DNA from: Euzebya tangerina
Lineage (GTDB): Bacteria > Actinomycetota > Nitriliruptoria > Euzebyales > Euzebyaceae
DNA length: 64,000 nt
Direction of reading: 5' to 3'
NCBI RefSeq assembly: GCF_003074135.1
Contig: NZ_PPDK01000001.1
Coordinates: forward strand, 1,984,001-2,048,000
The notes beneath the pieces are model-generated. The model had not been told where the DNA came from and did not search any database. It saw nothing but the letters and a program-made list of their open reading frames with translations. The stretch's first letter is position 1, and each line of letters begins with the position of its first letter. Shown here piece after piece: positions 23,877 through 27,287 of the stretch. Position numbers and translations under genes: made by a program.

Positions 23877-24646
23877 GCGCGAGCGGGCTCAGCGTGTTCG
23901 ACAGCGAGGCTGCCGCCTTCGCCCGAAGCCACGGCGACGGCCTGGTGCACCTGGCCGAGGACGAGATCACGATGCTCGGGTTCATCTCCTCCGCCAGCAA
24001 CGGGACCATGCTGGTCCACCTGGGATCCGAGGCCGAGCAGCGCTACGCGATCTACAAGCCCGGCCAGCACGAGCGGCCGCTGTGGGACTTCCCCGGCGAG
24101 CTGTACCTGCGGGAGGTGGCGGCCTTCGAAGTCAGTGCCTTCCTGGGGTGGGACCTCGTGCCACCTACCGTGGTGCGCACGGGCCCGCGAGGTGAGGGCT
24201 CCCTCCAGCTCTTCGTGCCACACGACCCCGCGGATCACTACTTCGAGCTGGTCGAGGACGCCTCGCTCTGGCCGCAACTCGTCCGCATGGCGATGTTCGA
24301 CATGGTGTGCAACAACGCCGACCGCAAGGGTGGGCACGTCCTGCGGCGCAGTGGGGCCGATCAGCTGTACGGCATCGACCACGGACTGACCTTCCACACC
24401 GAGACCAAGCTGCGGACGGTCATCTGGGACCTGCCGGACGTGCCGTTTCGCGAGGAGGACAAGGACGACCTCCGGCGACTGGAGCGCTGCATCGCTGGCG
24501 ATGAACCCTTCGCCAGGCGGCTGCACGAGCTACTGACCATCCGCGAGGTGGACGTCCTGCGCGCCCGGTGCGAACAGGTTGCCGGCATGACAGCCATGCC
24601 GCGGATCCCCTCGCAGGACCGCTGGTACCCCTGGCCGCCCATCTGA
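23873..24646 (+). CDS. SCO1664 family protein (PI3/4-kinase-like fold)
   Basis: A 257-residue protein whose motifs fit the SCO1664 family: AIYKPGQHERPLWDFP with the ATP-Lys, then FDMVCNNADRKGGHVL as the catalytic loop (Asn-Asn-Ala-Asp-Arg), and YGIDHGLTFH as the metal-binding Asp. These resemble the catalytic core of phosphatidylinositol 3/4-kinases and HipA-like kinases. The start overlaps the DUF3090 stop (ATGA). It is the third member of the conserved actinobacterial trio; the cellular substrate is unknown. Confidence 0.87.
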   Translation: MSASGLSVFDSEAAAFARSHGDGLVHLAEDEITMLGFISSASNGTMLVHLGSEAEQRYAIYKPGQHERPLWDFPGELYLREVAAFEVSAFLGWDLVPPTVVRTGPRGEGSLQLFVPHDPADHYFELVEDASLWPQLVRMAMFDMVCNNADRKGGHVLRRSGADQLYGIDHGLTFHTETKLRTVIWDLPDVPFREEDKDDLRRLERCIAGDEPFARRLHELLTIREVDVLRARCEQVAGMTAMPRIPSQDRWYPWPPI

Positions 24647-24678
24647 GCCGGACGACCACGCCACCGATCAGCGATGTG

Positions 24679-24695
24679 GCCGGGGCGAGCCCGGC
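24679..24695. terminator. hairpin between convergent genes
   Basis: GCCGGG and CCCGGC form a 6-bp GC stem with a 5-nt loop in the 52-base space between the SCO1664-type gene and the membrane-protein gene. No U-tract is present on either strand. Confidence 0.35.
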
Positions 24696-24698
24696 GCG

Positions 24699-25331
24699 TC
24701 AGTCCTGTTGGGGGACCAGACACCCGCCCTGCAGCCGGTCAGGACCGCCTGTTGGAGCCTCCTCATCCCCGCACAACGCGTTGCCGAGGTCCGAGCCGCC
24801 GGTGTCGAAGGCGATCACCTCGCTGACGACCGCGTTCTCGGGGAGTGGGATCAGCGTCCACGCGGCCGGCAGTTCCCGCGCCTGGGTGAGCCCGTTCAGT
24901 CCCTCACCCGTGGTCGTCGTGCCGCCGACGGTGGCCACCTCGGGCGGCGACGCAACGATCACGTAGGCGGGGTCCGCGTCGTCCGGCGCGTCGATGCCCC
25001 AGATCGGCCGCAGCGGATCCGGTGTTGCGCAGGTGCGATAGATCGAGCCTTCGCTGTCCGTCACCTCGGCGCAGACGCCGTCGCGTGACCATGTGGCCTG
25101 GCCGACCTCGGCGCCGGCCAACAGGAGGGGGCTCGTCACCGGCCCGTCGGGCGGTGGATCGAAGCCCAACCCGGCGTTCAGACCCAGATCGTCCTGCAGC
25201 CGTGGGGAGATGGTCAGGATGACCACCAGGAACACCAGCAGGAAGGCGCCAGCCGCCACCACGAAGAAGGTGCCGCTGCGGCGCGGGGGCTGGGCACCGA
25301 CATCGGTTGTCGTCGACCGCGATTCGCTCAC
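24699..25331 (-). CDS. single-pass membrane protein of unknown function
   Basis: I do not recognise the family. The 210-residue protein begins at a GTG, has a short Ser/Thr/Arg-rich cytoplasmic part, one membrane helix (FFVVAAGAFLLVFLVVILTI, about residues 22-41), and an extracytoplasmic domain of about 165 residues. That domain has four or more Cys (in VCAEV, YRTCATPD, NALCGDEE, GGCLVPQ) that could form disulfides. It is rich in Asp, Pro and Gly and has no catalytic motif that I can see. The frame opens further upstream, but only the GTG at 25331 gives a normal membrane-protein N-terminus. Confidence 0.6.
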   Translation of the reverse strand: MSESRSTTTDVGAQPPRRSGTFFVVAAGAFLLVFLVVILTISPRLQDDLGLNAGLGFDPPPDGPVTSPLLLAGAEVGQATWSRDGVCAEVTDSEGSIYRTCATPDPLRPIWGIDAPDDADPAYVIVASPPEVATVGGTTTTGEGLNGLTQARELPAAWTLIPLPENAVVSEVIAFDTGGSDLGNALCGDEEAPTGGPDRLQGGCLVPQQD

Positions 25332-25350
25332 ATGGCCATCATGCCGCGCG

Positions 25351-25470
25351 CTACTTGACGCGCTTGCCGCCGTGGGAGTCCAGCCGATAGATCCGGACCT
25401 GGCCGTCCTGTCGGACGTAGGCAATGATCCCGTCGCTGGTGCGGTGGGTGGAGATGACCTGGCGGTCCAT
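25351..25470 (-). CDS. 39-residue small protein
   Basis: A short frame beginning MDRQVISTHRTSDG and ending GGKRVK with TAG. It is supported by an AAGGAAGG ribosome-binding site about 7 bases before the ATG and by a near-consensus promoter upstream. It lies in an otherwise unexplained 205-base gap. The sequence is basic, about one third charged, and contains a plausible beta hairpin (GIIAYVRQDGQVRIYRLD). The family is unknown to me; it resembles a small stress-type or structural protein only in size. Confidence 0.6.
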   Translation of the reverse strand: MDRQVISTHRTSDGIIAYVRQDGQVRIYRLDSHGGKRVK

Positions 25471-25504
25471 GGTCTGACCTTCCTTGGTAAGCTGTCAGAG
25501 CGAG

Positions 25505-25537
25505 TTGGACCTTACAGATGAGGTTGTAATTAGTCAA
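25505..25537. promoter_or_regulatory. overlapping divergent promoters (small ORF / CGNR gene)
   Basis: Minus strand: TTGACT (25532-25537) and TAAGGT (25509-25514) are exactly 17 bases apart, the best sigma-70-like promoter I found in the window, with a 30-35-nt leader to the small ORF. Plus strand: TTGGAC (25505-25510) and TGTAAT or TAATTA (25525-25532) precede the ATG at 25537 by only 4-6 bases, which suggests a leaderless transcript for the CGNR gene. Confidence 0.55.
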
Positions 25538-26058
25538 TGGACTACGGTCATTACACGACGCAGACGATGGAAGAGACCGTCGCGCTGACGAACGGCCTGG
25601 CGAACGGGGAGCGTTCGATCTCCGACGATGAGCTGGAGGAGTTGCTGGTCCGCTTCGGGACGTGGGAGCGGGGCATCGACATCGAAGGGCTCACACACCT
25701 GGCCAGCCGTCTGCGGAGTGTCTTCTTGGCGGACGACGAGGCGGACCAGGCCCGGATCCTCAACGAGCTGATCGCGTTCTACCAGCCGCATCCGACCATC
25801 ACGGACCACGACGGCCAGGGGTTTCACCTGCACTACGGACCGCCAGGAGCCGGGCATCTGCGGATGATCGCGACGTCGATGACGATGGCCGTCGCGCTCG
25901 TCTTCTGCGACTACGGGGCTGACCGGCTGGGTGTGTGCCCTGACTGCGAGGACGTCTTCGTCGACACCACCCGCAACGGGCGGCAGCGATTCTGCTCGAG
26001 GACGTGTGCCAATCGGGTCCACGTGGCACGTCATCGGGAGCGGACGCGGTCAGAGTGA
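25537..26058 (+). CDS. CGNR-type zinc-finger transcriptional regulator
   Basis: A 173-residue protein with an ABATE-like N-terminal domain and a C-terminal CGNR zinc finger. The finger reads VCPDCEDVFVDTTRNGRQRFC, then SRTCANRVHVARHRER, so the usual CGNR motif is CANR here while the four Cys are kept. Family members bind DNA and often sit beside the enzymes they control. There is no ribosome-binding site; the ATG lies next to the likely -10 element. The stop overlaps the start of the threonine dehydratase gene (GTGA). Confidence 0.85.
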   Translation: MDYGHYTTQTMEETVALTNGLANGERSISDDELEELLVRFGTWERGIDIEGLTHLASRLRSVFLADDEADQARILNELIAFYQPHPTITDHDGQGFHLHYGPPGAGHLRMIATSMTMAVALVFCDYGADRLGVCPDCEDVFVDTTRNGRQRFCSRTCANRVHVARHRERTRSE

Positions 26059-27287
26059 GTCACGACGACTCGAAGCTGGTCGGCATCGACGACATCCGCG
26101 CGGCGCGTGAACGCATCCAGGATCTGATCCAAAGAACTCCCATCGAGGAGTCTCGCTCGGTCAGCGCCATCACCGGAGTGGAGACGCTGCTGAAGTGCGA
26201 GCACCTGCAGCGGACCGGGTCGTTCAAGATCCGCGGCGCGGCCAATCGGATCGCGGTCCTGGGAGAGGCGGAGCGAGCCGCCGGGGTGGTCTGCGCCTCG
26301 GCCGGCAACCACGCGCAGGGCGTGGCCTTGGCGGCATCGACCATCGGCGTCACCTCGACGGTCTTCATGCCGGCCGATGCGCCGCTCCCCAAGGTCGAGG
26401 CAACGCGCGGGTACGGTGCGAACGTCGTCCTCGGCGGCGCCACGTTCGATGACGCGCTGGAGGCAGCCCGGGCGTTCGAGCACGAGCACGGCGCCACCTT
26501 CGTCCATCCGTTCGACCACCCCGACGTGATCGCCGGCCAGGGGACGCTGGGGCTCGAGATCCTGGAGCAGGCACCGGAAGCCGCGACGGTCCTGGTGGCC
26601 ATCGGGGGCGGAGGGCTGATCGCTGGCGTTGCCGTCGCTCTCAAGGCGCTCCGGCCGGACATCCGCATCATCGGTGTGGAACCCGCGGGGGCGGCCAGCG
26701 CCGTCCAGGCCCTGGGGGCCGGCCACGCCGTGACGCTGCCCGAGATCGGGACCTTCGCCGATGGCATCGCGGTGAAGCGGGTTGGGGACGTGCCCTTCGC
26801 GCACATCCACCGGCTGGTCGATGACGTCGTCGTGGTCACCGACGAGGACATCGCGCGCGCCGTGCTCCTCTTGGTCGAACGGGCCAAGCAGGTGGTCGAG
26901 CCGGCGGGAGCCGCCCCGCTCGCCGCACTGCTGCGGGGTGACCTGGACATCACCGGACCGGCCGTCCCGCTCCTGTGCGGGGGCAACGTCGACCCGCTGC
27001 TGCTGGGCAAGATCATCCAGTCAGGCCTGTACGAGGAGGGCCGGTATCTGGTGGTCAACACCCGGGTAGGGGATCGCCCCGGCGCACTGGCACAACTCCT
27101 CGGCCTGATCGCGGGGGCCAAGGCCAACGTGCTCGCCATCCAGCACCACCGTCTCAACACGGCGCTCGGGCTGCTGGAAGTGGGCGTCGAGATCCAGCTC
27201 GAGACCCGCGGCGTTGCCCACATCCGTGAGGTGGTCCGGGTCCTGGAGGAGGCCGGGTACCCCGTGGAGGCGGAGATCCCCGACTGA
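26055..27287 (+). CDS. ilvA: threonine ammonia-lyase (dehydratase) with ACT domain
   Basis: A 410-residue PLP enzyme turning L-threonine into 2-oxobutanoate and ammonia. The PLP lysine is in GSFKIRGAANRI, followed by SAGNHAQGVALAA and the phosphate loop IGGGGLIAGVA. The C-terminal ACT domain (about 330-410, VVNTRVGDRPGALAQLLGLI) suggests feedback by amino acids; this is the short catabolic/biosynthetic type with one ACT domain. The GTG start overlaps the CGNR regulator stop by 4 bases, an unusual operon that suggests regulator and enzyme are co-produced. Confidence 0.9.
   Translation: MSHDDSKLVGIDDIRAARERIQDLIQRTPIEESRSVSAITGVETLLKCEHLQRTGSFKIRGAANRIAVLGEAERAAGVVCASAGNHAQGVALAASTIGVTSTVFMPADAPLPKVEATRGYGANVVLGGATFDDALEAARAFEHEHGATFVHPFDHPDVIAGQGTLGLEILEQAPEAATVLVAIGGGGLIAGVAVALKALRPDIRIIGVEPAGAASAVQALGAGHAVTLPEIGTFADGIAVKRVGDVPFAHIHRLVDDVVVVTDEDIARAVLLLVERAKQVVEPAGAAPLAALLRGDLDITGPAVPLLCGGNVDPLLLGKIIQSGLYEEGRYLVVNTRVGDRPGALAQLLGLIAGAKANVLAIQHHRLNTALGLLEVGVEIQLETRGVAHIREVVRVLEEAGYPVEAEIPD

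Follow-up and report, generated by a model that had tools for sequence, protein, structure and literature searches.

The window, meaning the whole 64 kb stretch of DNA that was analysed (from genome G000), contains a gene for a CGNR zinc-finger regulator and, head-to-head with it, a 39-codon open reading frame (ORF). The features that matter for what follows are these.

24699..25331, minus strand: probable membrane-protein gene; GTG start chosen by eye, 19 nt after the small-ORF stop
25351..25470, minus strand: small ORF, 39 aa; diverged member, without cysteines, of an HxTSEG/HxTSDG family (from HMM rank and the G050 homologue)
25478..25485, minus strand: Shine-Dalgarno-like AAGGAAGG, with 7 nt between its end and the ORF ATG (from the sequence)
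25487..25515, no strand: predicted operator dyad 1, GTAAG-N19-CTTAC (from sequence comparison)
25488..25493, plus strand: TAAGCT, a weak inferred candidate for the -10 of the CGNR gene, without a good -35
25510..25515, minus strand: -10 TAAGGT, coinciding with the right arm of dyad 1
25526..25554, no strand: predicted operator dyad 2, GTAAT-N19-ATTAC, spanning the ATG of the CGNR gene; codons 5-6 (CAT TAC) hold the right arm
25533..25538, minus strand: -35 TTGACT, within dyad 2 and overlapping the AT of the CGNR ATG
25537..26058, plus strand: CGNR zinc-finger regulator of the ABATE-CGNR type, 173 aa (from Pfam and a profile match to PDB 3h0n)
26055-27287, plus strand: threonine ammonia-lyase-like gene, named by eye; likely GTG start overlapping the CGNR stop codon (GTGA)

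ABATE-CGNR proteins were reportedly called putative stress regulators in 2009. They are common: even a threshold of E 1e-25 leaves 61 genomes with one among the 396 sampled from the phylum. In the window protein the C-terminal zinc finger is recognised by Pfam zf-CGNR (E 6.5e-15, 55.1 bits with a cut-off of 24), and C134, C137, C153 and C157 are invariant in 13 sequences. The Pfam ABATE model alone stays below its cut-off (17.8 vs 24.4 bits). It is a profile of 13 homologues that identifies the N-terminal ABATE domain, by matching PDB 3h0n over positions 1-177 of 178 (E 4.3e-29). This entry is Jann_2411, an ABATE-CGNR (DUF1470) protein that the consulted part of its report describes as dimeric, with a zinc finger that putatively binds DNA (PMC2954205). 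The window protein resembles it in domain order, in the four invariant zinc-finger cysteines and in the near full-length profile match. The same part of that report gives no DNA target and does not use the word promoter, and no DNA site, target or ligand was found for the CGNR/ABATE family in the set of literature searched, outside which papers may exist. What is proposed here, and distinguishes the locus from Jann_2411, is that there is an operator, that it is placed for self-targeting and that a small gene is paired with the regulator.

The membrane-protein gene is perhaps co-transcribed with the small ORF in G000, and by eye a similar gene is divergent from the CGNR gene in G001, the closest CGNR relative. 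A general link between CGNR proteins and threonine ammonia-lyase was considered and discarded, a downstream PLP motif being present only in G000 and G001 among 22 loci.

The small ORF, its promoter and its relatives

The small ORF (25470-25351, minus strand) encodes MDRQVISTHRTSDGIIAYVRQDGQVRIYRLDSHGGKRVK. The first-pass annotation had credited it with a strong ribosome-binding site and with promoter elements TTGACT/TAAGGT, and both are present where it placed them. The former is AAGGAAGG at its 7 nt spacing, and the latter, with a 17 bp spacer, fits the sigma-70-type pattern (TTGACN, 16-18 bp, TANNNT). The further claim that this is the best promoter in the window is nearly correct. When the 64 kb were scanned for a -35 matching 5/6 or better, with a TANNNT -10 and a spacer of 16-18 bp, only two sites came up, but the other one (TTGACC-16-TAGACT, minus strand, 12197-12170) scores higher, with 9/12 consensus bases vs 8/12 for the small-ORF promoter. 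A stricter scan of 24500-26500, requiring 9/12, found no promoter.

The arrangement recurs elsewhere. A GTCAA block lies just before the start codon in 21 distinct CGNR loci, and all 21 have a TANNNT on the minus strand at a spacer of 16 (1 locus), 17 (14 loci) or 18 bp (6 loci). None has one at spacers 5-15 or 19-21, with single cases at 22, 26 and beyond. In G050, as in the window, the right arm of dyad 1 doubles as the -10; the remaining loci have another sequence there. The 16-18 bp spacing is thus held though the distance from site to site varies. The genes downstream of the minus-strand promoter also differ among loci, and many are small. The promoter of the small ORF is thus, by sequence comparison, conserved.

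Relatives of the ORF itself are scarce close by. A homologue was found in 1 of 100 relatives, G050, where it is head-to-head with the CGNR orthologue and has a promoter (TTGACA-17-TAAGCT) and a strong Shine-Dalgarno sequence of its own; in the class, only G000 and G050 carry it (2 of 66 genomes). The two ORFs are 49% identical, vs 54% for the two CGNR proteins. When a profile of these two sequences was run against the 396 phylum genomes it gave four weak matches beyond that in the window itself. Those in G300 and G353 (E about 0.009) are small ORFs head-to-head with CGNR genes, and the other two sit within long open frames.

Profile searches then define a sister CGNR subfamily, with 84 matches among 201 relatives of G319 and 38 among 118 relatives of G300. 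Sixty sister loci, the best 30 of each search, were examined, and 57 of these best-scoring 60 have a small gene head-to-head with the CGNR gene, counted as a frame at a fixed distance that carries the loose motif H-x0-2-[TVS][SV]x[GASV] or YxxCx1-2C. The start codons are 25 nt apart in 37 of the 57 and 26 nt apart in 20, the small genes have 45-119 codons, and all 57 products contain at least two cysteines. No small gene fitting the motif at that distance was seen in the other loci of the 60 (L159, L167 and L191). The typical motif is HxTSEGxVxYxRCxCG (17 proteins aligned, with those of the window and G050). The sister family has a median dN/dS of 0.53 over 898 pairs, only moderately below 1, and several pairs exceed 1.

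Is the window ORF a member of this family? An HMM was built from 54 sister-subfamily proteins (the distinct sequences out of 56, with L181, read in a wrong frame, excluded and the window and G050 sequences not in it). It was used to rank all 1186 ORFs, counted from 25 codons upwards, that the window and 3.1 kb of G050 contain. The top rank goes to the window ORF (E 8.8e-5) and the next to that of G050 (E 1.4e-4); rank 3 has E 0.36. The window ORF's match is short, covering 16 model positions. The ORF has the core SxHxTSxGxxxY and the head-to-head position at a CGNR gene, and what it lacks, as does the G050 ORF, is the cysteine pair, both having no cysteine at all. It is best read as a diverged relative, by descent and by position, without the family's cysteine site.

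A lone ORF or a chance promoter is rejected on the HMM ranks together with the conservation of the promoter. Another way to dismiss the ORF is to regard it as decayed or accidental, the promoter and operator serving the membrane-protein gene that begins 19 nt behind it. Its lack of cysteines and its presence in only 2 of 66 class genomes would suit this. Yet a good Shine-Dalgarno sequence precedes it in both genomes, it has kept nearly the identity of the CGNR proteins (49% against 54%), it and its homologue take the first two ranks with an HMM made from other genomes and, by eye, a different gene lies behind it in G050. Decay or chance is therefore very unlikely. The 39-aa ORF is, as far as these comparisons go, a genuine small gene paired with the CGNR gene, and the advice to look for the small protein in relatives has paid off, since the G050 homologue, the sister-subfamily proteins and the recurring minus-strand promoter go beyond chance.

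The family to which this 39-codon ORF belongs is without a Pfam or NCBIfam model, none matching the 17 members scanned at E 0.01; a PHROG matches 1 of the 17 (E 0.0033). A profile from five proteins matched at least 5 of the 396 genomes, the window's own included, when the best 15 candidates per genome were scored. This understates the size of the family, and one of the matches, in G213, is weak and lies within a 436-aa open frame. The small ORF had no match among plasmids and phages. Pattern scans confirmed no small-ORF relative among 15 stretches of genome contigs or 10 of viral contigs, which is weak evidence of absence. A CGNR scan of genome contigs likewise confirmed 0 of 125 stretches, and these contig scans say little about absence because CGNR genes do exist in the genomes searched by profile. 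No Rfam family reaches its gathering threshold at 25200-26200.

Small zinc-ribbon proteins are a general fold class, and the sister members resemble them in having a C-x1-2-C pair after a predicted strand. The window protein is modelled by AlphaFold2 without an alignment as three beta strands (pLDDT 82.5, pTM 0.50), and a Foldseek search with this model, made from a single sequence, found nothing at E 0.001. Unlike zinc-ribbon proteins, the window and G050 members have no cysteine, and no Pfam or NCBIfam model covers the 17 members scanned. The family probably had a zinc-binding ancestor. A search of the literature for small zinc-ribbon proteins beside autoregulated genes found nothing. Separately, L120 and L037 have divergent small proteins with CPxC/CPxH and CYCG motifs upstream of their CGNR genes, perhaps a second zinc-ribbon-like partner family.

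Predicted operators at CGNR start codons

The first-pass annotation missed not only the small-protein family but also the two dyads. Each is 29 bp long with the form GTAA-N21-TTAC, and they start 39 bp apart. GTAAG-N19/20-CTTAC is found upstream of many CGNR genes. For a count, 99 CGNR loci were chosen, omitting duplicates and several partial matches, and L114 was dropped for want of a recognisable zinc finger. In the remaining 98 start regions (35.5 kb) GTAA is followed by TTAC 13, 33 and 14 times at gaps of 21, 22 and 23, a total of 60 against an expectation of 0.064 per gap from base composition; owing to relatedness among the genomes sampled, locus counts are not independent events. The remaining gaps from 8 to 44 have 0 to 4 inverted pairs each (4 at gap 13). 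The outward pair TTAC/GTAA occurs 8 times at gap 15 and at most 3 times at other gaps. The flanks of the loci (170,781 bases) contain a single dyad, making them about 290-fold less dense than the start regions. At least one dyad is present in 40 of the 98 loci, and 58 have no perfect GTAA-N21-23-TTAC. L040 has two dyads 166 nt apart, of which the upstream one, where the scanned region begins, resembles those at start codons (GTAAGCTGTCAA...). In G001 dyad 1 is present, whereas dyad 2 and the small ORF were lost or never present.

Further evidence comes from the part of dyad 2 that lies in coding DNA. Its right arm reads AAC CCT TAC (Asn-Pro-Tyr) in sister-subfamily genes, and the proline is CCT in 60 of 60 genes (the best 30 of 84 and the best 30 of 38), against 9 of 420 other proline codons in these best-scoring genes. 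In other CGNR groups the residue before the right-arm tyrosine varies (His, Ala, Asp, Ser or Tyr). Nevertheless a T precedes TAC in 22 of 23 non-sister start-codon sites with a left arm and a TAC codon, compared with 4 of the 184 codons that precede TAC elsewhere. This count was made over 97 distinct loci, 40 of which have the left arm, 27 with TTAC (22 once five sister loci are subtracted) and 13 without. In six of those without (L007, L043, L085, L088, L092 and L109) the wrong start codon was probably chosen, and L123 has CACTAC at the right-arm position. Six loci (L083, L087, L099, L101, L117 and L122) have TGAC in place of TTAC, perhaps a variant operator, with T before GAC in 6 of 6. It is by comparison among loci, then, that both the predicted operator dyads and a constraint on silent bases become apparent.

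These dyads bear on how the CGNR gene is transcribed. It had been proposed that a promoter opposite to that of the small ORF has its -10 just before the CGNR ATG and yields a leaderless mRNA. The promoter is weak, consisting of TTGGAC (25505-25510) followed by TAATTA or TGTAAT 4-6 nt before the ATG. Neither hexamer, by eye, has the form TANNNT expected about 6 nt before the start of a leaderless gene, TGTAAT lacking A at position 2 and TAATTA lacking T at position 6. The supposed -10 is instead a predicted operator arm: the left arm of the conserved dyad GTAA-N21-TTAC is formed by GTAAT, 11 nt ahead of the ATG, with the partner arm in the coding sequence. A leaderless -10 at the ATG was accordingly dropped as the main reading. 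A TANNNT at the place of the weak candidate TAAGCT is found also in G001, G050 and L007. In 3 of 25 loci TTGACx-17-CAAACT lies on the CGNR strand, upstream, at or replacing dyad 1, and it would give a leader of about 30-45 nt, as judged from its position; most of the 25 loci inspected have no clear plus-strand promoter. No Shine-Dalgarno sequence lies within the usual distance of the CGNR ATG. In the sister subfamily leaderless mRNAs are plausible because in 57 of the best-scoring 60 loci the start codons are only 25-26 nt apart.

Perhaps, then, there are simply two back-to-back promoters, with a leaderless CGNR mRNA and coupling by transcription alone, and no dedicated operator. The small-ORF promoter is real and conserved, and the missing Shine-Dalgarno sequence and the little room for a leader in the sister loci would also be accommodated. 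However, this leaves the 290-fold enrichment of dyads and their extension into coding DNA unaccounted for, the -10 put forward beside the ATG does not fit TANNNT, and the 3 loci with TTGACx-17-CAAACT have their CGNR-strand promoter upstream. We regard it as quite improbable. The more general expectation that the divergent genes influence each other is supported by the shared control region, where RNA polymerase or a regulator bound at either promoter should hinder the other one.

What binds the dyads? In the whole G000 genome the pattern occurs at 4 places, two of which are the window dyads, and read backwards it occurs at 2. One of the other sites is directly before a TetR-like gene, as might be expected if the dyads were real operators of a regulator other than CGNR. 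This is unlikely, however. The pattern is rare in the genome, and dyads occur at CGNR genes from several groups whose neighbouring genes differ. In addition, of 20 loci with two dyads (among them L040, with its pair 166 bp apart), 18 have the same gap in both, the exceptions being L005 and L110, and gaps vary from locus to locus; such agreement is reached in 0 of 20,000 shuffles, which do not correct for shared descent. Gaps that agree within loci and differ between them are expected if the local CGNR protein sets the spacing of its dyads.

A possible regulator-microprotein switch

We consider it probable, from sequence comparison, that the small gene is expressed from TTGACT-17-TAAGGT and that the head-to-head CGNR protein, as a dimer, represses both genes through the two dyads until released by a ligand. 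The dimer would bind each dyad. Once bound it would shut the small-ORF promoter, the -10 of which is the right arm of dyad 1 and the -35 of which lies in dyad 2. Dyad 2 also covers the CGNR start codon, and occupancy there would give negative autoregulation; autorepression is preferred over activation solely for where the sites lie. Binding of a ligand by the ABATE domain would then make the dimer let go. The small protein would be the main co-regulated product, perhaps also a partner or feedback modulator of CGNR. That it may act on CGNR is suggested by the steady pairing.

In divergent pairs of the TetR/LacI type an autoregulated repressor is encoded head-to-head with its target, with shared operators over both promoters. 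The CGNR locus shares the head-to-head target and, as predicted, the common operators. It differs from such pairs in its unrelated DNA-binding fold, in its dyads of 29-31 bp with arms of 4-5 bp, in the continuation of one dyad into the regulator's codons and in the very small size of the partner protein.

A broader idea is distinctly more tentative. In Actinomycetota there could be a two-part switch in which the CGNR dimer reads GTAA-N21-23-TTAC, one copy of it in its own first codons, and a dedicated head-to-head microprotein (zinc-ribbon-like in the sisters, cysteine-free here) binds CGNR to tune or release it. The small gene and its promoter, real as they seem to be and ordinary in type, would thus lie within a conserved regulator-microprotein module. 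A module of this kind, with an operator reaching into the regulator's codons, is apparently undescribed, and it offers a clear case of an operator constraining silent bases in the first codons of a gene. Since the predicted operator is precise and the candidate partner gene conserved, the function of ABATE-CGNR proteins becomes directly testable.

In one locus the pair is kept together in another arrangement. On a Tsukamurella plasmid (L194; NZ_LR134458.1, 9125-12232) the small HTSEG gene points the same way as the CGNR gene, with 7 nt between them; both are annotated, the small one as a hypothetical protein. A heavy-metal P-type ATPase gene lies nearby on the opposite strand, a hint at metals as the signal.
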